Assembly: GCF_020172665.1 (NCBI RefSeq)
Contig: NZ_CP083985.1
Location: 1,152,302-1,216,301, forward strand
Source of the DNA: [Mycobacterium] zoologicum
GTDB taxonomy: Bacteria; Actinomycetota; Actinomycetes; Mycobacteriales; Mycobacteriaceae
Length of the DNA stretch: 64,000 bases
Direction of reading: 5' to 3'
The notes under the pieces are model-generated. The model did no database searches. It was not told the DNA's origin and saw nothing but the letters and a program-made list of their open reading frames with translations. The position numbers and the translations under genes are program-made. Numbering within the stretch: position 1 is the first letter of the stretch; each line of letters starts with the position of its first letter. Shown piece by piece: positions 14,568-40,352 of the stretch.

Positions 14568-14975
14568 ATGACCGCAATAACCACGCCGATCCTGTTCGAC
14601 GCGACCGACTCACTGCTGCGCTTCGCCCTGCGCGCCGACGCCGTCATCACCGGAATCATCGGTTTGGCCGGTGTGATCGCCGCCCGCCCGATGGCGGCCA
14701 TCGAGGGCTTGACCCCGGCCCACGAATACGCCCTGGCCGCGTTCTGCGTCCTCTACGGAGCGGTGGTGTACTTCCTGTCCGCGCTTCCGGAGGTGCGCCG
14801 GGCCGGGATCGGTGTGATCGCCGCGAACCTGGTGTGCACGGTGGCCGCCGTTGCGGTGGTGGAGGCGGGTGTGTTTCCGCTCACCGGAATCGGGATCGCG
14901 GCGATGCTGGGCAGTGCCGTCTACACGGCGTTCTTCGCGTGGATGCAGTTCCGCGGGCTGCGTCGGCTGAGCTGA
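14568..14975 (+). CDS. Small four-helix membrane protein, unknown
   Basis: 135 residues with four hydrophobic helices: DAVITGIIGLAGVIAARPM, EYALAAFCVLYGAVVYFLSAL, GIGVIAANLVCTVAAVAVV and LTGIGIAAMLGSAVYTAFFAWMQF. The start has a strong Shine-Dalgarno sequence (AAGGAG, 14555-14560) 7 nt before ATG 14568, so this is translated by the canonical route. The size and helix layout resemble small DoxX- or SPW-like proteins, but no diagnostic motif is visible. Confidence 0.75.
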   Translation: MTAITTPILFDATDSLLRFALRADAVITGIIGLAGVIAARPMAAIEGLTPAHEYALAAFCVLYGAVVYFLSALPEVRRAGIGVIAANLVCTVAAVAVVEAGVFPLTGIGIAAMLGSAVYTAFFAWMQFRGLRRLS

Positions 14976-33378: not shown

Positions 33379-36300
33379 ATGAGCACGTCAACTTCGTGCC
33401 GTAAGTGCGGCACGGATCTACTGGTGAACGCGCAGTTCTGCCACTCCTGCGGTTCGCCGATCGCGGTTGCCACAACACCGGCCGAGTTCAAGCAGGTGAC
33501 GGTGTTGTTCGCCGATGTGGTGCATTCGATGGACCTGGCTGCGGCGGTCGGTGCGGAGCGGTTGCGCGAGATCATGGGCGCGCTCTTCGGCCGCTGTGCT
33601 GCGGTGGTGCGGCGCTACGACGGGGTGGTGGAGAAGTTCATCGGCGATGCCGTTATGGCGGTGTTCGGTGTACCGGTGGCTTTGGAGGACCACGCGTTAC
33701 GGGCATGCCTGGCGGCACTGGACATCCAGCAGCAGGCACAACAGCTGGCGGCGGAAGTGGCTCGCGCCGACGGCGTCAGCCTGGAGCTTCGGGTGGGGCT
33801 GAACTCCGGCCAGGTGGTCGCCGGTGACCTCGGATCCGATCCGTTGAGCTACACCGCGATCGGCGACCAGGTCGGGTTGGCGCAACGAATGGAGTCGGTG
33901 GCGCCGCCGGGCGGAGTGGTACTCAGCCAATCGACCGTCCGCTTGGTCGAAGACGTCGCCGTACTGGGCGAGCCGGTGGTAGTCCAGTTCAAGGGTGCTG
34001 GTGCGCAGGTGTCCGTGTGTCGACTTCTGGCGGTGTCGCCGGAGCGCCGGCATGTGCCGAGGCAGGATTCGACGCTGGTGGGACGGGCCTGGGAGATGGG
34101 TGCGCTACGGGGCATCCTGGAGGAATCGATCGCAGGGACCGGTTGCGTAGTGGGGGTGGTCGGGCCGCCCGGCATCGGTAAAAGTCGGATCGTCCGCGAG
34201 GTCAGTGCTGTGGCGCGGAGCCGCGGGGCCGAGGTGTTCGCCGCCTACTGCGAGTCCCACGCGCGCGAGGTCCCGTTCTACACGGCGACTTCGCTGCTGC
34301 GCAACGTACTTGGGATAGACGGTCTCGACGACGAACCGGCTCGCAAGCGAGTCGAGGAGCGCGCGCGCGATGCGGATCCGGAGGACCTGCTATTGCTGCA
34401 GGATCTGCTCGGTATCCGCGAGAGCGGGGTCGAGTTGCCCGCCATTGACGCCGACGCCCGGCGGCGCCGGGTGACGCGGTTGGTCGAAGCGATCTGGCTG
34501 GCGCGCACCACACCGGCGGTCTATGTCGTAGAGGATGCGCATTGGATCGATGAGGTCAGCGATGTGTTGCTGGCGGATCTGCTGGGCGTGGCCCGGCAAA
34601 CCCCATCACTGGTGTTGATCACCTACCGGCCCGAATATTGTGGCGCGCTGACTCGGAAAGTGAGCTCGCAGACGATCAACCTCGGGCCGCTCAGCGCGTC
34701 GCAGACGGCCATGCTTGCTGGCGAACTGATCGGCTCCCGTCCCTCGGTGGCGGCGCTGTGTGGGCAGGTCGCGGAGCGGGCCGCCGGCAATCCGCTTTTC
34801 GTCGAGGAGATGGTGCGCGATCTGGCCGAGCGGGGTGTGCTGACCGGGTCTCGCGGTCGCTACGCCTGTGCGGTCGACGATGCCGAGCTCGTCGTCCCGG
34901 CAACGGTGCAGGCCACCATCGCCTCCCGCATCGATCGGCTTGACCCGGCGGTCAAACGGACTTTGCATGCCGCTGCGGTGATCGGGCTGCGGTTCGACGC
35001 CGAGCAGTTGGCATTGCTCGATGGCGAGGCACAGATCGCGCCGTTGCTCGACGCGGAGTTCATTGATCAGGTGGGGTTCACCGCCCAAGCCGAATATGCG
35101 TTCCATCACCCGCTGGTCCGGATCGTGGCCTATGAATCACAGCTGAAATCGCAGCGAGCCATGCTGCATAGGCGGCTTGCTACCGCAATCGAGCAGCAAT
35201 TCGATGCGCTCGATGAGAACGCGGCGATGATCGCCGAGCATCTTGAGGCCGCTGAGGACCTACCCGACGCTTTCGGCTGGCACATGCGTGCCGGGGCATG
35301 GTCGCAACACCGCGACATCCGTGCTGCGCGTGTCAGTTGGGAACGTGCCCGCACCGTCGCCGACCGGTTGCCGATCAACCATCCCGACCGCTCTTCGATG
35401 CGGATCTTCCCACGAACCCTGTTGTGCGGCAGTGTCTGGCGAGTCGGCGGGAATGTCGAAGATACCGGTTTCGGCGAACTGCGTGAGCTCTGTACAGCCT
35501 CCGGGGACCAGGTGTCACTGGCTGTCGGGATGGCCGGCCTGCTGACCACGATGGTATTTCATTCTCGCTACCAGGAAGTCCTGCTGCTTACCGCGCAATT
35601 CGTGGAATTGCTTGAATCCATCGGTGACCCCGATCTGTCGGTTGGACTGTTGTTTGCCGCGCTCTGGGCCAAGCTCGAACCCGGCGACGCGGCAACGGGT
35701 TTCCGGCTGGCGCAGCGCCTCATCGACTTGGCTGACGGCGATCCGGAGAAGGGCAACCTACTGCTCGGCTCACCGCTGACAGCAGCGATCGCGGTCCGGG
35801 GCGTGTTCGGCATGTTGCTCGGACGTCCGGGGTGGGGCGACGACCTAGCTGAGGCTGTCGTGATGGCCCGCGCATTCGACCCGACGACTCGCGCCATCAC
35901 GGTGATGTTCCAATGCCTGCTGATCCCCCAGGGGGCGATCCGGCCCGATGAGGTCACGCAAGACAGTGTGGACATCCTGGAGGTGGCGGAGCACTCAGGT
36001 GACGAATTCGCCTTGGCTGCCGCTCGCCTGGCCCGCGGCCTGGTTCTCGCCTACGGCAACGGTCCGGACCAGGTCCAAGGATTGGAACTGCTGGCGCTGG
36101 CTCGAGAAGCCTCGCTGAATCAGCGATTCATCGCCAGCCTCGCGCAGGTGGCGGACACTCAGATCGCCTTGCAGAAGGTGCAAACGGGTGATCTCGACGG
36201 TGCGATCGGTCTGTTGCGTGAGGTGGTTCGGGCGCTGTTCGAAAGTGGCGTTGTCATCTGGTACGTGCCGGCGGCGATCCGCCTTGTGCAATTGCTGCTT

Positions 36301-36537
36301 GATCGTGACGCGGGCGGTGACCGTCAAGAGGCCGAAGCCATATTGGACGAATTCGCGGTGACGGTGAACGTCGCCGAGTTGGGTCTGCATGAAGCATGGT
36401 TGCTCTACGGCAGGGCGCTGCTGGCAAGGGCTCGCAGTGACACGGCTGCCTACCGCGAGTACGTGAATCGTTACCGTGCCAAGGCAGAGGTGTGCGGATA
36501 CGCCCGACATCTGGCGATGGCGGAGGCGATGATGTGA
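33379..36537 (+). CDS. Zinc-ribbon / class III cyclase / STAND ATPase / TPR-like signalling protein
   Basis: 1052 residues. A zinc ribbon opens the protein (Cys7, Cys10, Cys21, Cys24), then a class III nucleotide cyclase domain (residues about 37-200) with metal aspartates Asp46 in LFADVV and Asp90 in KFIGDAVMAVFG and the block LNSGQVVAGDLG. An AAA/STAND ATPase follows (Walker A GPPGIGKSR near residue 267, Walker B VYVVEDAHWIDE), then a long helical repeat region to the end. Unlike mycobacterial cyclase-ATPase-LuxR proteins such as Rv0386, it lacks a DNA-binding end; the next gene supplies one. Its stop overlaps that gene's start (ATGTGA), so both are made together. Confidence 0.88.
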   Translation: MSTSTSCRKCGTDLLVNAQFCHSCGSPIAVATTPAEFKQVTVLFADVVHSMDLAAAVGAERLREIMGALFGRCAAVVRRYDGVVEKFIGDAVMAVFGVPVALEDHALRACLAALDIQQQAQQLAAEVARADGVSLELRVGLNSGQVVAGDLGSDPLSYTAIGDQVGLAQRMESVAPPGGVVLSQSTVRLVEDVAVLGEPVVVQFKGAGAQVSVCRLLAVSPERRHVPRQDSTLVGRAWEMGALRGILEESIAGTGCVVGVVGPPGIGKSRIVREVSAVARSRGAEVFAAYCESHAREVPFYTATSLLRNVLGIDGLDDEPARKRVEERARDADPEDLLLLQDLLGIRESGVELPAIDADARRRRVTRLVEAIWLARTTPAVYVVEDAHWIDEVSDVLLADLLGVARQTPSLVLITYRPEYCGALTRKVSSQTINLGPLSASQTAMLAGELIGSRPSVAALCGQVAERAAGNPLFVEEMVRDLAERGVLTGSRGRYACAVDDAELVVPATVQATIASRIDRLDPAVKRTLHAAAVIGLRFDAEQLALLDGEAQIAPLLDAEFIDQVGFTAQAEYAFHHPLVRIVAYESQLKSQRAMLHRRLATAIEQQFDALDENAAMIAEHLEAAEDLPDAFGWHMRAGAWSQHRDIRAARVSWERARTVADRLPINHPDRSSMRIFPRTLLCGSVWRVGGNVEDTGFGELRELCTASGDQVSLAVGMAGLLTTMVFHSRYQEVLLLTAQFVELLESIGDPDLSVGLLFAALWAKLEPGDAATGFRLAQRLIDLADGDPEKGNLLLGSPLTAAIAVRGVFGMLLGRPGWGDDLAEAVVMARAFDPTTRAITVMFQCLLIPQGAIRPDEVTQDSVDILEVAEHSGDEFALAAARLARGLVLAYGNGPDQVQGLELLALAREASLNQRFIASLAQVADTQIALQKVQTGDLDGAIGLLREVVRALFESGVVIWYVPAAIRLVQLLLDRDAGGDRQEAEAILDEFAVTVNVAELGLHEAWLLYGRALLARARSDTAAYREYVNRYRAKAEVCGYARHLAMAEAMM

Positions 36538-39155
36538 GCGGAATGAGCTTGCCGTGGCCCCTGATTGGACGCTCCGAGGAGATGCGAACGCTCCAAACGG
36601 CCCTCTCTGCCGCGGATGTCTCCGGGGCCGTCGTTTGGGGTGCGGCGGGGGTGGGAAAGAGCCGGATCGTGCGTGATGTGCTGGCGGCCGCCGAATCGCA
36701 GGGCTACGACGCGCGATGGGCGGTCTGCACCTCCTCGGCGCGCAGCGTTCCGCTCGGCGCTTTCGCAACCTGGGCGCCGGCGGGGGTCACCGACACCACT
36801 GCGCTGCTGCAAGGGGTGATCGAATCTCTGACGTTCGCGCCGTCGGGCACCGCGATGCTCGGTGTGGACGACGTGCATCTGATCGATGACTTGTCGGCGT
36901 TCGTGGTGAACCAGATCGTCCAACGCGGCTTGGCGAAGGTGATTCTCACTGTCCGTGATGACCAGGATGTACCGGCTGCGGCACATGAGATTTGGCGAGC
37001 GGGACGGTTTGAGCGACTCGATTTGCAGACGCTGTCACTTGATGAGACCTCCGAGCTGATGTCGGCGGCCCTGGCCGGCCCGGTGGATACCGACGCGGTT
37101 CGACGACTGTGGAAGTTGACCCGTGGCAACGTGCTGTATCTACGCAACATCGTCGAACACGAGATCGCCGACGGCAGAATCGTGCAACGAGGCGGGTCCT
37201 GGCGCTGGATCGGGGATCCGATCATCCCGCCCAGCCTCACCGAGCTCATCGAATCCCGTATCGGCTCTCTGCCGGGGCCGGTCAGCGATGTACTCGATGT
37301 GCTGGCCGTCGGAGAGCCGATCGAACTGGCGGCTCTGATGCGGATTACCGATCCGGTGGCGGTGGAACAGGCTGACACTCGCGGCCTGATAACTCTCGAC
37401 CCCGCCGACGGCGGTACGCAGGTGCGGGTTGCGCATCCGCTGTACGGGGAGGTCCGGCGTAGACGGGCGGCGCCCACCCGGCTACGACGGTTGCGTGGGT
37501 TGGTTGCCGTAGAACTCGCGGGATCCGAAGACCGCGACGACATCGCCCCGCTGGTGCGTCGTGCGGCGTTGAGTTTTGAGTCGGATCTCGCGCCCGACGC
37601 CGACCTGTTCGCCAGGGCTGCTCACGGTGCGGTCTGGCTGGCGGATCTGGTGCTGGCCGACCGCCTCGGTCGGGCGGCCATCCGTGCCGGAGCCGGACCG
37701 GATTCGAGTTTCATTCGGGCACATGCACTGTCGTGGCTGGGCCGTGGCGAGGAGGCCGATGCGGTACTGGCTGAGGTCGGAACAGCGGACCTGACCGATG
37801 TCGACCACGCCAGGCTGGCTTTTCTGCGGGCCAGCAACATGCTCTGGGGTCTTGGCGAGCCCGCTCGTGCCAGGCAGATCATCGACGATGCCGCATGCTC
37901 GGTATCGGCACCGGCGCGCGACTATGTTGACGCATTTCTGGCGGTGTACTGGTTTGCGACGGACCAGTTGGATGCGGCCAGGCGAGCCGCTGAGAATCTT
38001 GCCCTGGACGACCTGCCTGCGGTCGTCGGCGCCGAGATCGCCTGGGTGCGCACGGTTATCGCCGCCGATGCGGGACGCACGGCGGAAGCCTTGGCGGTGG
38101 CGGATGCGGGGTATACCGTGGCGGCGCGCTCGTTGGATGCCCCACACATGATGTTCAATATCGCGGACGCGCACGTCAGCGCGCTGCTGCTGGCTGGACA
38201 GATAACCGAGGCCGTTGAGGTGGCCGAGTCGGTGCTTCGTCAGGCGGCCGAACTGCCGGGCGTAGCACAGTCGCTCGGCGGTGCGGTTGCTGGACGAGCC
38301 GCGCTGAGCGCCGGCCGTATCGATGCCGCCTGTTTCCTGCTGGACCAGGCTGGGGTGAGCTTCTCCGACAGCGGCCACCTCACCGGCTGGGGATACCGCT
38401 ATCTGATTCCGCGCATCACTGCGCTGGCGATGCGTGGTTCCGTCGGTGAGGCTGCCGAGGGGCTGGACGTGCTCACCGGACTGAAGCGTCCATTCCGGTC
38501 GCTCGACTATGAGCGGAGTCTGGCGCAGGCATGGGTGGCCGCCGGACAGGGCGCTGTCAGCGAGGCGATCAGTGTCGTATTGTCGGCAGCTGAACGCGCC
38601 AGGGCCACTGGGCAGTTCGCTGCCGAAGTATTCTGCCTGCAGACCGCGACGCAGTTCGGGGACCGTTCGGGTGGATCGCGGTTGCGTGAGCTCGAAGCGA
38701 TCGTCGAGGGGTCACGCGTTGGTATCGCCGCCCGGTTCGCCGCCGCACTCCGCGAGGGCGATGGCGCGGAGTTGGTCTCGGTTTCAGAGGATTTCGAGCG
38801 CATCGGCGACCTCGTGGCCGCCATCGATTCCAGCGCCCAGGCTGCGCTGACGTTTCGTCGTCAGGACTTGCGAGGAACCGCGCTGGGATGCGCGGCGCGC
38901 GCCTCGGCGCTGTCCGAACGATGCGGAGGTGCTGACACGCCGGCACTTCGCCAAGCCGCGGAGCCCTTACCGCTGACCGATCGGGAGTCCGAGATCATGA
39001 TGCTGATCGGGGAGGGCCTGTCGAACCGCGCTGTCGCCGAGCGCCTGGCGCTTTCGGTCCGCACCGTCGAGAGCCACATCTACCGGGCCATGCTGAAGAC
39101 CGGGACCTCCAGCCGTGACGAACTCGCCGCCTTGCGGCCTCGGCGCCGGACGTGA
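36534..39155 (+). CDS. LuxR-family STAND ATPase transcriptional regulator
   Basis: 873 residues. It begins with an ATPase (WPLIGRSEEM, Walker A WGAAGVGKSRIV, Walker B MLGVDDVHLIDD), continues with LTRGNVLYLRNIVEHE and a long helical repeat region, and ends in a LuxR-type helix-turn-helix (LTDRESEIMMLIGEGLSNRAVAERLALSVRTVESHIY). This is the MalT/LAL design: ligand or partner binding controls ATP-dependent DNA binding. GTG 36534 overlaps the stop of the cyclase gene; ATG 36543 (MSLPWPLIG) is an alternative. The tight linkage suggests that the two proteins work as a pair. Confidence 0.9.
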   Translation: MSGMSLPWPLIGRSEEMRTLQTALSAADVSGAVVWGAAGVGKSRIVRDVLAAAESQGYDARWAVCTSSARSVPLGAFATWAPAGVTDTTALLQGVIESLTFAPSGTAMLGVDDVHLIDDLSAFVVNQIVQRGLAKVILTVRDDQDVPAAAHEIWRAGRFERLDLQTLSLDETSELMSAALAGPVDTDAVRRLWKLTRGNVLYLRNIVEHEIADGRIVQRGGSWRWIGDPIIPPSLTELIESRIGSLPGPVSDVLDVLAVGEPIELAALMRITDPVAVEQADTRGLITLDPADGGTQVRVAHPLYGEVRRRRAAPTRLRRLRGLVAVELAGSEDRDDIAPLVRRAALSFESDLAPDADLFARAAHGAVWLADLVLADRLGRAAIRAGAGPDSSFIRAHALSWLGRGEEADAVLAEVGTADLTDVDHARLAFLRASNMLWGLGEPARARQIIDDAACSVSAPARDYVDAFLAVYWFATDQLDAARRAAENLALDDLPAVVGAEIAWVRTVIAADAGRTAEALAVADAGYTVAARSLDAPHMMFNIADAHVSALLLAGQITEAVEVAESVLRQAAELPGVAQSLGGAVAGRAALSAGRIDAACFLLDQAGVSFSDSGHLTGWGYRYLIPRITALAMRGSVGEAAEGLDVLTGLKRPFRSLDYERSLAQAWVAAGQGAVSEAISVVLSAAERARATGQFAAEVFCLQTATQFGDRSGGSRLRELEAIVEGSRVGIAARFAAALREGDGAELVSVSEDFERIGDLVAAIDSSAQAALTFRRQDLRGTALGCAARASALSERCGGADTPALRQAAEPLPLTDRESEIMMLIGEGLSNRAVAERLALSVRTVESHIYRAMLKTGTSSRDELAALRPRRRT

Positions 39156-39193
39156 AGTCTCCCGCTCAGTAGTGCTGTCGTTGAAACCGGGCG

Positions 39194-39217
39194 AAATTGC
39201 AGTAGCCCACCACTGAG
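39194..39217 (+). promoter_or_regulatory. ATTGCAGT near-palindromic motif, copy 1
   Basis: ATTGCAGTAGCCCACCACTG (39196-39215) sits 73-96 nt upstream of the secreted-protein start at 39290. CAGTAG and CCACTG form imperfect arms. Over 24 positions it agrees at 20 with copy 2 near 40073. Location just after the LuxR regulator suggests an activator site for it. Confidence 0.55.
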
Positions 39218-39289
39218 GCGCACCCACCGGATATCGGTGACGATCCCTGGTACGCCAACCGGCGTTTTTCGTGATGACAGGAGATGATC

Positions 39290-39799
39290 ATGAACACAAC
39301 GTCTTGTTCCTCCGTCCCGATGGCGGTGGCGGTGATCGGCGCCTGCCTCGTCGCGATCCCTGCGTCGGTACCACCGACCGTCTTGTCGCCCGCGGTTGCG
39401 CTGTCGTCCGCTGGAGACCTGATGGTCAGCGACGTGGGTGCTGTCGTCGATGCACTGACCGGCGCGGACCCCGGTACGGCGCTTGCCGGCGTGCCGGACG
39501 AATACTACGACTACTTGAACGGTTTGGGTGTACCTGCCGAGGACCAGGACTTGGCCCTCGGTGGGCTGATAGCGGGAGTCGCGGCGCTTGCTCAACTCAT
39601 CGCGTCGCTTTTCACGAACCCGTTTGGCTGGCTGCTAGACGCTATTGATTGGGTCGCAAATCTTTTCGGCTTCGACATCTTCCCCGACGACGCCGCCAGC
39701 GCACTGGCGACCGCCGTGCCGGACTTCGACCTCTCCGTTCCGGATGTCGGCATCCCGGACCTCGACCTTTCAAACCTGGTCCCTGACTTCGGGATATAG
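39290..39799 (+). CDS. Small secreted protein, unknown, downstream of LuxR regulator
   Basis: 169 residues. A signal peptide (MNTTSCSSVPMAVAVIGACLVAIPASVPP) is followed by DLMVSDVGAVVDALTGADPG, a hydrophobic stretch LGGLIAGVAALAQLIASLFTNPFGWLLDAIDWVANLFG and an acidic end rich in Asp-Leu/Val-Pro (FDLSVPDVGIPDLDLSNLVPD). No Cys outside the signal. ATG 39290 is chosen over 39284 because ACAGGAG (39276-39282) is then well spaced. I do not recognise a family. Composition resembles mycobacterial exported proteins; it is the first gene after the cyclase/LuxR pair and has the repeated motif upstream. Confidence 0.7.
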   Translation: MNTTSCSSVPMAVAVIGACLVAIPASVPPTVLSPAVALSSAGDLMVSDVGAVVDALTGADPGTALAGVPDEYYDYLNGLGVPAEDQDLALGGLIAGVAALAQLIASLFTNPFGWLLDAIDWVANLFGFDIFPDDAASALATAVPDFDLSVPDVGIPDLDLSNLVPDFGI

Positions 39800-40034
39800 C
39801 CGTCACGATCGACTTCACGATCATCGCCTCGGCCCAGACGCAGACAGAAGAGCGACGATGAGTACCGCAGACTTCGACGGCCCTGGCGGCGTGCTGATGA
39901 GGATCGCTCCGCACGCGACCGGCCACGCATGGGCAGGGGGTCGGACGAGGAAGTGCATCAAGTGGTGGCCCGCTGGGCGGAAGGCCAGGGGAACCCATGA
40001 GGCCACGCGGAGAAGCGCAACGCGGACTGCAATC

Positions 40035-40052
40035 GGTGGGAACTACTGCAAT
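40035..40052 (-). promoter_or_regulatory. ATTGCAGT motif, copy 3 (inverted, with 2-nt insertion)
   Basis: On the minus strand this reads ATTGCAGTAGTTCCCACC: the ATTGCAGTAG core is identical to copy 1, then two extra bases, then CCCACC again identical. It faces copy 2, with 20 nt between them. Confidence 0.45.
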
Positions 40053-40072
40053 ACCATCCGGCTGGGCAGGGC

Positions 40073-40096
40073 AAATTGCAGTGGCTCGCCACTGGG
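40073..40096 (+). promoter_or_regulatory. ATTGCAGT palindromic motif, copy 2
   Basis: ATTGCAGTGGCTCGCCACTG at 40075-40094 contains the perfect palindrome CAGTGG-CTCG-CCACTG (40079-40094). It lies 62-85 nt upstream of ATG 40158, almost the same distance as copy 1 from its gene. The conserved spacing to two different start codons supports a real promoter element. Confidence 0.6.
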
Positions 40097-40157
40097 TTCG
40101 ACGTTCCGCCCAGGCGTGACGATTTGTCGGTAACACCTTCACGGAAGGAGACAGATG

Positions 40158-40352
40158 ATGTCCGTCTCAGTTATGCCCTTGCCGCATATGGTCTCTGCGC
40201 ACCTGGCTGCCGCCGTGCACGCGATGTTTTCGCACCATGCCGACGAGGTGATGTCGACCGCGCACTCGTGGCACCCGCCGCATCACTACCCACCGCAGCT
40301 CAACGACATCCTCGGAGACTCCGCCATGGCCCGGGAGATGGGTCGGTTGTGA
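40158..40352 (+). CDS. Small His-rich protein, unknown
   Basis: 64 residues, His-rich (VHAMFSHHADEVM and HSWHPPHHYPPQLND), ending with DILGDSAMAREMGRL. AAGGAG (40145-40150) is 7 nt before ATG 40158 (an ATG at 40155 is also in frame). No signal or membrane helix. The clear ribosome-binding site and the upstream motif shared with the secreted-protein gene make it a likely real gene. The His cluster could bind metal; that is a guess. Confidence 0.55.
   Translation: MSVSVMPLPHMVSAHLAAAVHAMFSHHADEVMSTAHSWHPPHHYPPQLNDILGDSAMAREMGRL

Follow-up and report, generated by a model that had tools for sequence, protein, structure and literature searches.

The window analysed here is a 64,000-nucleotide stretch of the [Mycobacterium] zoologicum genome (G000:C1:1152302-1216301 of a single contig of 4,425,202 bases). 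It contains two giant, overlapping genes for STAND proteins (signal transduction ATPases with numerous domains), one with a cyclase domain (cyc-STAND) and one with a LuxR-type helix-turn-helix (HTH) domain (LuxR-STAND), followed by two small genes that share an upstream palindrome. STAND proteins with cyclase or LuxR domains are numerous in mycobacteria, and to our knowledge almost no operators or target genes have been described for them. We consider here the regulatory unit that the genes of this locus may form. Its features, all on the + strand, are:

33379..36537, +: cyc-STAND gene, 1052 residues; zinc ribbon (Cys7, 10, 21 and 24), class III cyclase domain (residues 36-191), STAND NTPase (233-414) and alpha-helical repeat C-terminus (Pfam, residue alignment, AlphaFold)
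36534..39155, +: LuxR-STAND gene; STAND NTPase, helical repeats and C-terminal GerE/LuxR HTH (Pfam, junction comparison, AlphaFold)
39200..39215, +: operator 1, 16-bp palindromic core CAGTAGCCCACCACTG, with the flank AAATTG from 39194 (motif searches, conservation)
39239..39244, +: putative -10 element (GACGAT) for the 39290 gene, located 23 nt past operator 1; predicted transcription start ~39251
39290..39799, +: gene for a 169-residue protein (171 if the start is 39284) with a hydrophobic N-terminus, possibly exported; no Pfam match
40079..40094, +: operator 2, CAGTGGCTCGCCACTG, a perfect 7-2-7 palindrome, with the flank AAATTG from 40073 (motif searches)
40118..40123, +: putative -10 element (GACGAT) for the 40158 gene, at the same 23-nt spacing as at operator 1; predicted transcription start ~40130
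40158..40352, +: gene for a 64-residue His-rich protein of a small family with a conserved C-terminus; no Pfam match

The best start of the LuxR-STAND gene is GTG 36534, which gives a 4-bp GTGA overlap with the cyc-STAND gene (36534-36537). The first-pass annotation had described functions divided between two overlapping giants, and the Pfam scan agrees. The cyc-STAND protein matches the zinc ribbon PF13240 (25.8 bits, cutoff 25), Guanylate_cyc (1.3e-24) and AAA_16 (1.2e-22), and the scan found no HTH in it. The LuxR-STAND protein matches AAA_16 (PF13191, 7.2e-9, above cutoff) and the GerE/LuxR HTH (PF00196, 9.4e-13), and the same scan found no cyclase domain.

The composition of LuxR-STAND is that of the STAND/MalT-type LuxR activators: a STAND NTPase with a Walker A motif, a helical-repeat sensor arm and a C-terminal GerE HTH. 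Walker A residues G36, G39, G41, K42 and S43 are invariant in 18 aligned sequences. The AlphaFold model, built with 18 sequences, has a mean predicted local distance difference test (pLDDT) score of 79.6 and is helical from residue ~314 to 800, mostly at high pLDDT. Its top PDB match is 6mfv and MalT (8bob) ranks 15, with low TM-scores. Mean identity is even over the segments of the protein (0.61-0.68) and highest, at 0.78, in the HTH (45 sequences, window copy included), which occupies about residues 808-873 when counted from the GTG start. The best NCBIfam match is the AbsR2 model NF050132 at 207 bits, far below its 850-bit cutoff, which rules out assignment as AbsR2. The closest named relative is from Mycolicibacter sp. 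MYC017 (95%). No close plasmid-borne copies were found; six plasmid records match, the best at only 42.8% identity.

Operator and promoter architecture

A palindromic motif common to the upstream regions of both small genes, proposed in the first-pass annotation, is borne out. The sequence AAATTGCAGTRGCYCRCCACTG occurs at 39194 and 40073 with zero mismatches, in none of 100 shuffles, and at one further place within 3 mismatches (it has 3) in the whole 4.4 Mb host genome. The operator has the form AAATTGCAGT-R-N6-Y-ACTG (CAGTR-N6-YACTG) and is followed at a fixed spacing by a -10-like GACGAT, which lies 23 nt past the palindrome at both small-gene sites and had gone unmentioned before. Within 3 mismatches, the composite of operator and -10-like element is found at exactly three sites in the host genome, all of them perfect, and the reversed pattern at none. 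These sites lie before the 39290 gene, before the 40158 gene and at G000:2083830, before the gene for a 220-residue protein at G000:2083919. A chance motif is ruled out by the shuffles, by the host-genome searches and by reversed-pattern controls in the host and in the 396 genomes described below.

The same architecture recurs in related loci. A form within one mismatch of ATTGCAGTRNNNNNCYACTG precedes an open frame in 16 of the 17 fetched named LuxR loci, the copy in L017 being weaker. The operator-site survey left out loci L024-L057; its alignment keeps 89 of 119 rows, those with weak start-codon context and near-identical sites having been dropped, and the consensus of these nonredundant sites is near GARATTGCAGTRGYGCRCTACTG. 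In this alignment tGACGATt emerges unselected at offsets 42-49 (A44 0.91, A47 0.80, T48 0.94). The pattern A..AT stands at offset 44 in 52 of 64 nonredundant exact operators and in at most two at any other offset tested, and the spacing is alike in operators from stretches without a LuxR-STAND (28/34) and with one (24/30). Two inner palindrome pairs covary (50/89 versus 34.9 shuffled, and 64 versus 55.6); two other pairs do not. At the 59 sites with the best ribosome-site scores, the start codon lies a median of 94 nt from ATTG (range 74-140).

If GACGAT is the -10 element, the palindrome would span ~-51 to -36, with its centre at ~-43.5. This is where LuxR-type activators sit. A -35 element is not conserved in the operator promoters, and the empty result of a consensus sigma-70 scan at the two small genes is therefore expected.

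Two other elements were noted in the course of these searches. A terminator-like hairpin with a T run at 39252-39265, just past the predicted transcription start of the 169-residue protein gene, is a possible attenuator in the leader of that gene; a hairpin scan of the region gave 6 terminator-like sites versus 3.4 in shuffles. A different perfect palindrome, AGTGCAGTAGTCGACTACTGCAT / AGTGCAGTAGTCGACTACTG, is present at L098 (G000:C1:1904620), L099 and L100 and is conserved in three genomes. The gene that follows it codes for a PGRS-like protein at L098 and L099, and for an exported-looking protein at L100. We left it out of the regulon because the GACGAT spacing is absent; it is maybe the site of another LuxR-type regulator.

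Association of the operator with LuxR-STAND genes

The distribution of the operator was followed through 396 Mycobacterium genomes and 230 other-genus genomes of the family sample (30 genera); some sampled genomes are the same assemblies as the named loci. At most two LuxR candidates per genome were scored in the 396, and LuxR counts are given among the matches listed. A close LuxR is one of 931 bits or more in this comparison and of 800 bits or more in a second comparison of 20 genomes.

The exact operator occurs at 120 sites in 71 of the 396 genomes, versus one site for the reversed pattern. Among the matches listed, a LuxR match at 1e-120 is present in all 71 of these genomes and in 252 of 396 overall, and 68 of the 71 fall within the 127 genomes that have a close LuxR. 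Allowing up to two mismatches, the reversed control yields 5 sites in 4 genomes and the composite at least 296, spread over 115 genomes. Of these composite sites, 276 lie in 95 of the 127 genomes with a close LuxR, and the other 20 are single sites in 20 of the 269 genomes without a close LuxR among the matches listed.

The association is also local. In the 20 genomes, an operator lies within 500 bp downstream of 16 of 34 close LuxRs versus 0 of 39 distant LuxR-STANDs, and none of those 39 has one within 10 kb; these counts dropped seven opposite-strand duplicates of palindromic sites and cyc-STAND matches under ~600 bits. The second LuxR-STAND of the host at 1e-60 (G000:575350, 43%) has no site above score 5 within 1.3 kb on either side. 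Outside Mycobacterium, 4 of the 230 genomes carry a composite site within one mismatch, and in the three other-genus loci read (G414, G599 and G560) LuxR, operator and cyc-STAND stand together, one cyc-STAND being split between frames; the fourth genome is G550. The earlier proposal of a locally linked regulator, operator and outputs is supported, with an operator that tracks close LuxRs through the 396 genomes.

The operator could belong to another transcription factor that travels with these genomes, LuxR-STAND controlling something else. Such an arrangement would fit the 68 of 120 exact operators that lie outside the interval from 3 kb before to 12 kb after a LuxR among the matches listed, as well as the 20 genomes with a single composite site and no listed close LuxR. 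We find it quite unlikely, given that 28 of the 120 exact operators lie no more than 101 bp past the end of a LuxR match on the same strand, that no such arrangement is seen at the 39 paralogues in the 20 genomes, and that LuxR, operator and cyc-STAND recur together in the three other-genus loci read.

Several observations nevertheless count against LuxR-STAND as the activator dedicated to this operator. The 20 genomes were chosen for having operators. For 18 of their 34 close LuxRs, no operator is found in the 500 bp downstream when one mismatch is allowed, and a weight matrix applied to these 18 found variants at three (L128, L135, L138), weaker variants at two (L130, L136) and none at 13. 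Among the matches listed, the composite is absent from 32 of the 127 genomes that have a close LuxR, and the operator genomes G081 and G146 have only a distant LuxR. In G114, which is outside the 20 genomes, a distant LuxR-STAND (L109:3-2108; 40% over residues 158-863, cut by the stretch end) lies ~2.7 kb before an operator. To judge from this gene and from G081 and G146, the operator may also be used outside the close LuxR clade. The site counts are also not independent, since the genomes are related.

The cyc-STAND partner

Of the 17 named loci, 13 have a full-length cyc-STAND (at least 900 residues aligned), with one to three copies per locus in either orientation. The ATGA/GTGA overlap at the cyc-STAND/LuxR-STAND junction is found in 10 of 18 loci, two of which (L014 and L084) have only a remnant of the first gene. 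In the 20 genomes, a cyc-STAND lies within 5 kb of 17 of 34 close LuxRs versus 0 of 39 other LuxR-STANDs. Of 33 exact operators more than 15 kb from any close LuxR, seven are within 5 kb of a cyc-STAND, with 0.36 expected; three of the seven are sites in G389 that are only 15-17 kb from a LuxR. One genome, G366, encodes ten cyc-STANDs (700 bits or more) versus three close LuxRs (800 bits or more).

The first-pass annotation had pictured a complete unit that needs both giants, and this is not supported. At L084 (genome G073) and L015 the LuxR gene, the operator and a target of the 64-residue family persist, and the cyc gene is a remnant. Across 326 genomes, among the matches listed, 97 have both a close LuxR and a cyc-STAND, 11 a LuxR only, 97 a cyc-STAND only and 121 neither. 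Two results here tell against a partnership: cyc-STAND is present in 97 of the 218 genomes without a listed close LuxR, and two of the 20 genomes (G073 and G202) have a LuxR of the close clade and no cyc-STAND at 1e-60. Since cyc-STAND is frequent at LuxR loci and yet absent from G073 and G202, we regard it as a frequent but dispensable input.

The remnants are internally deleted cyc-STAND genes. In L084 (8137-8415) the zinc ribbon and the last ~40 residues form one open frame and the 4-bp overlap with the LuxR start is kept. In L014 (7460-7989) the start and end are in different frames and the overlap is again kept, and in L015 (7863-7970) a 38-residue zinc-ribbon frame ends before LuxR. Perhaps these remnants are kept as a leader for LuxR translation.

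The persistence of LuxR and operator beside cyc remnants, together with the cyc-STANDs of genomes without a listed close LuxR, would also be explained if cyc-STAND were an independent neighbour outside the regulon, with LuxR, operator and targets alone forming the unit. This is the less probable arrangement, though one to be taken seriously; it does not readily account for the coding overlap kept in 10 of 18 loci, for the difference in cyc-STAND proximity between close and other LuxRs, or for the lone operators near cyc-STANDs.

The AlphaFold model of cyc-STAND (20 sequences) has a mean pLDDT of 74.6, and its cyclase part is poorly modelled. The best PDB match is again the STAND-TPR protein 6mfv, with Apaf-1, NOD2 and MalT lower, and all TM-scores are low. 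Within the cyc-STAND set mean identity is lowest in the distal repeats (0.44, versus 0.70 in the cyclase domain); the set mixes paralogues, so that a strict comparison of this lower value with those of the LuxR set is not warranted, a caveat to the idea of a faster-evolving partner. We read the pattern as suggesting receptor diversification around a shared output, the signal being passed by co-assembly or by a nucleotide.

The zinc-ribbon cysteines and the Walker A Lys are invariant across 51 aligned cyc-STANDs, window copy included. In the cyclase domain, for which the roles of active-site residues are presumed from those of class III cyclases in general, the metal Asp residues D46 and D90 and the transition-state Arg170 are likewise present in 51 of 51. 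The transition-state Asn position is Gly166 in all 51, so that of the Asn and Arg required by an active class III cyclase only the Arg is present. The substrate Lys is found in 16 of 51 and the Thr of the adenine-selecting Asp/Thr position in 18 of 51; the window copy has K86 and T159.

Cyclic AMP (cAMP) production, as anticipated in the first-pass annotation, is therefore doubtful. A model in which cyc-STAND makes cAMP, acting through CRP or on LuxR-STAND, draws on the conserved metal and Arg residues and on Lys86 of the window copy, and is unlikely in view of the Asn lost from every copy and the Lys from most. A scan of window positions 14885 to 51665 for the CRP consensus TGTGA-N6-TCACA, allowing 2 mismatches, gave no site, and the half-sites and spacing of the operator differ from this sequence; CRP control of the locus was rejected, no such site being near it. 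The available text on the Mclx proteins describes loss of the same Asn from Mclx2 and Mclx3, stated for Rv1358 and Rv2488c (PMC4452763). As described there, Rv0386, Rv1358 and Rv2488c resemble the present pair in having a cyclase homology domain, AAA/NB-ARC and a LuxR HTH, and differ in that all domains are in one chain (PMC4452763). In the present operon the cyclase and the HTH belong to separate STAND proteins with overlapping genes.

Other assignments of cyc-STAND fared less well. Residues 31-871 align to the TOMM kinase/cyclase fusion model TIGR03903 at 253.7 bits, below the cutoff of 705.75; no kinase family was matched, and no TOMM gene was recognised by eye among the open reading frames at 31-43 kb. 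Similarity of the cyclase domain to Pycsar cyclase models (best 1.4e-20), which we judge to be generic to class III, is the point in favour of both proteins being anti-phage sensors (Avs-like STAND or Pycsar-like cyclase). Pycsar systems pair a PycC cyclase with an adjacent killing effector, and no effector model was matched among the four proteins scanned. Neither small protein has a PADLOC match, the outputs sit behind an activator-type promoter, and the five flanking genes in the Pfam scan are ordinary (AI-2E transporter, epimerase, Rv2632c-like, 3-beta-HSD and exonuclease VII large subunit). An anti-phage role is accordingly highly improbable.

Target genes and the proposed regulon

That the two small genes are fixed outputs, as they had been taken to be, is not supported, and the targets differ widely. 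The 64-residue family is found in 9 of the 17 named loci; its 14 aligned members have the consensus HYPP.LN.FLEDAAMAREM.RL, with an invariant REM near the C-terminus. The 169-residue family is found in three of the 17 loci, and was rejected as a universal output with matches in 3 of 148 genomes (its own included, one weak). The 169-residue protein, possibly exported as judged from its hydrophobic N-terminus, aligns at 31% identity with the 220-residue protein under the third host operator. Among 30 hand-picked targets, Pfam matches include AfsA hotdog, polyprenyl synthetase, MMPL, P450, PKS acyltransferase, PE-PPE, methyltransferase, thioesterase, carbamoyltransferase, ABC ATPase and long beta-propeller proteins; 11 of the 30 have no Pfam match.

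Individual loci add to this list. An isoprenoid-type stretch (L060:3431-14712) has operators at both ends and encodes two polyprenyl synthases, a P450, a PPDK-like enzyme, an MmpL exporter and an AfsA-like protein, the last far below the ScbA/BarX cutoff (68.4 versus 200 bits). Similar operator pairs occur in L058, L059, L070 and L109, full annotation being available for L060 only. At L106:7428-8339 the operator precedes a gene whose product scores 413.7 bits (cutoff 350) as a glycine/sarcosine N-methyltransferase, a hint of some connection with betaine or osmolytes. A second recurrent family of small targets (60-64 residues) with GHDWAKDGTLLRVD is found at L009:11627-11815, L014:10698-10880, L015:10707-10889 and L021:10707-10889; its L009 member has no Pfam match.

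MalT of E. coli is a STAND activator with a LuxR HTH that works with CRP and several MalT boxes. Both AlphaFold models have the MalT-system structure 8bob among their fold matches (at low TM-scores); the present system differs in having one palindrome near -43.5 and no CRP-like site. As far as the available texts describe them, the closest systems are IniR and the Mclx proteins (PMC5760070, PMC4452763; LuxR census, PMC3466318). IniR, the closest studied type of regulator, was overlooked in the first-pass annotation. IniR (Rv0339c/MMAR_0612) is described in the accessible part of its report as an ATPase-type LuxR-like regulator of mycobacterial iniBAC that answers to trehalose; like LuxR-STAND it has an N-terminal AAA+ ATPase, a MalT-domain-III-like region and a C-terminal LuxR-like HTH, and its gene is separated from the nearby target operon by a small gene (PMC5760070). 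It differs in its targets and in that this text names no cyclase partner, the comparison being by description and not by sequence; the terms 'palindrom', 'inverted repeat' and 'binding site' were not found in that text (PMC5760070). An IniR orthologue would lie next to iniBAC, and here the five scanned neighbours are ordinary genes and the small genes have no Pfam match. Among the matches listed in a literature search, whose coverage leaves out most subscription journals, no description of this cyc-STAND/LuxR-STAND pair or of the operator spellings was found.

Taken together, we consider it probable that LuxR-STAND is an activator of the MalT/IniR kind that controls a regulon of its own and receives input from diversifying cyclase-STAND partners. 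Binding to the operator, activation of transcription and partnership with cyc-STAND are what we infer from sequence. The LuxR-STAND ATPase would be closed at rest, and a ligand or partner would lead to oligomerisation. Dimers of the LuxR HTH would then bind CAGTR-N6-YACTG centred at ~-43.5 and recruit RNA polymerase to the -10-like GACGAT promoters, which have no conserved -35. Activation would switch on the possibly exported 169-residue protein and the 64-residue protein in the window, plus the 220-residue protein elsewhere in the genome. In this scheme cyc-STAND would act as a second STAND receptor, one that evolves faster and feeds into the same output, either by co-assembly with LuxR-STAND or through a nucleotide that its unusual cyclase domain makes or binds.

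A more speculative extension, which we put forward tentatively, is a sensor/helper STAND network. A few conserved LuxR-STAND helpers with their own operator would receive signals from a larger, fast-changing set of cyc-STAND sensors with diversifying repeats, and the altered-site cyclase domain would serve as a coupling module or as the source of a non-canonical signal. If correct, this network would parallel the sensor and helper NLRs of plants.

For one clade of STAND regulators there is now a defined operator, together with a list of targets and a promoter geometry from which activation is predicted, with composite sites in 115 genomes. With these in hand, what these giant proteins regulate and whether the cyclase makes cAMP become directly testable. 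In non-tuberculous mycobacteria, the regulon suggests a switch that acts on exported and PE-PPE proteins, on MmpL exporters and on genes for isoprenoids or polyketides.

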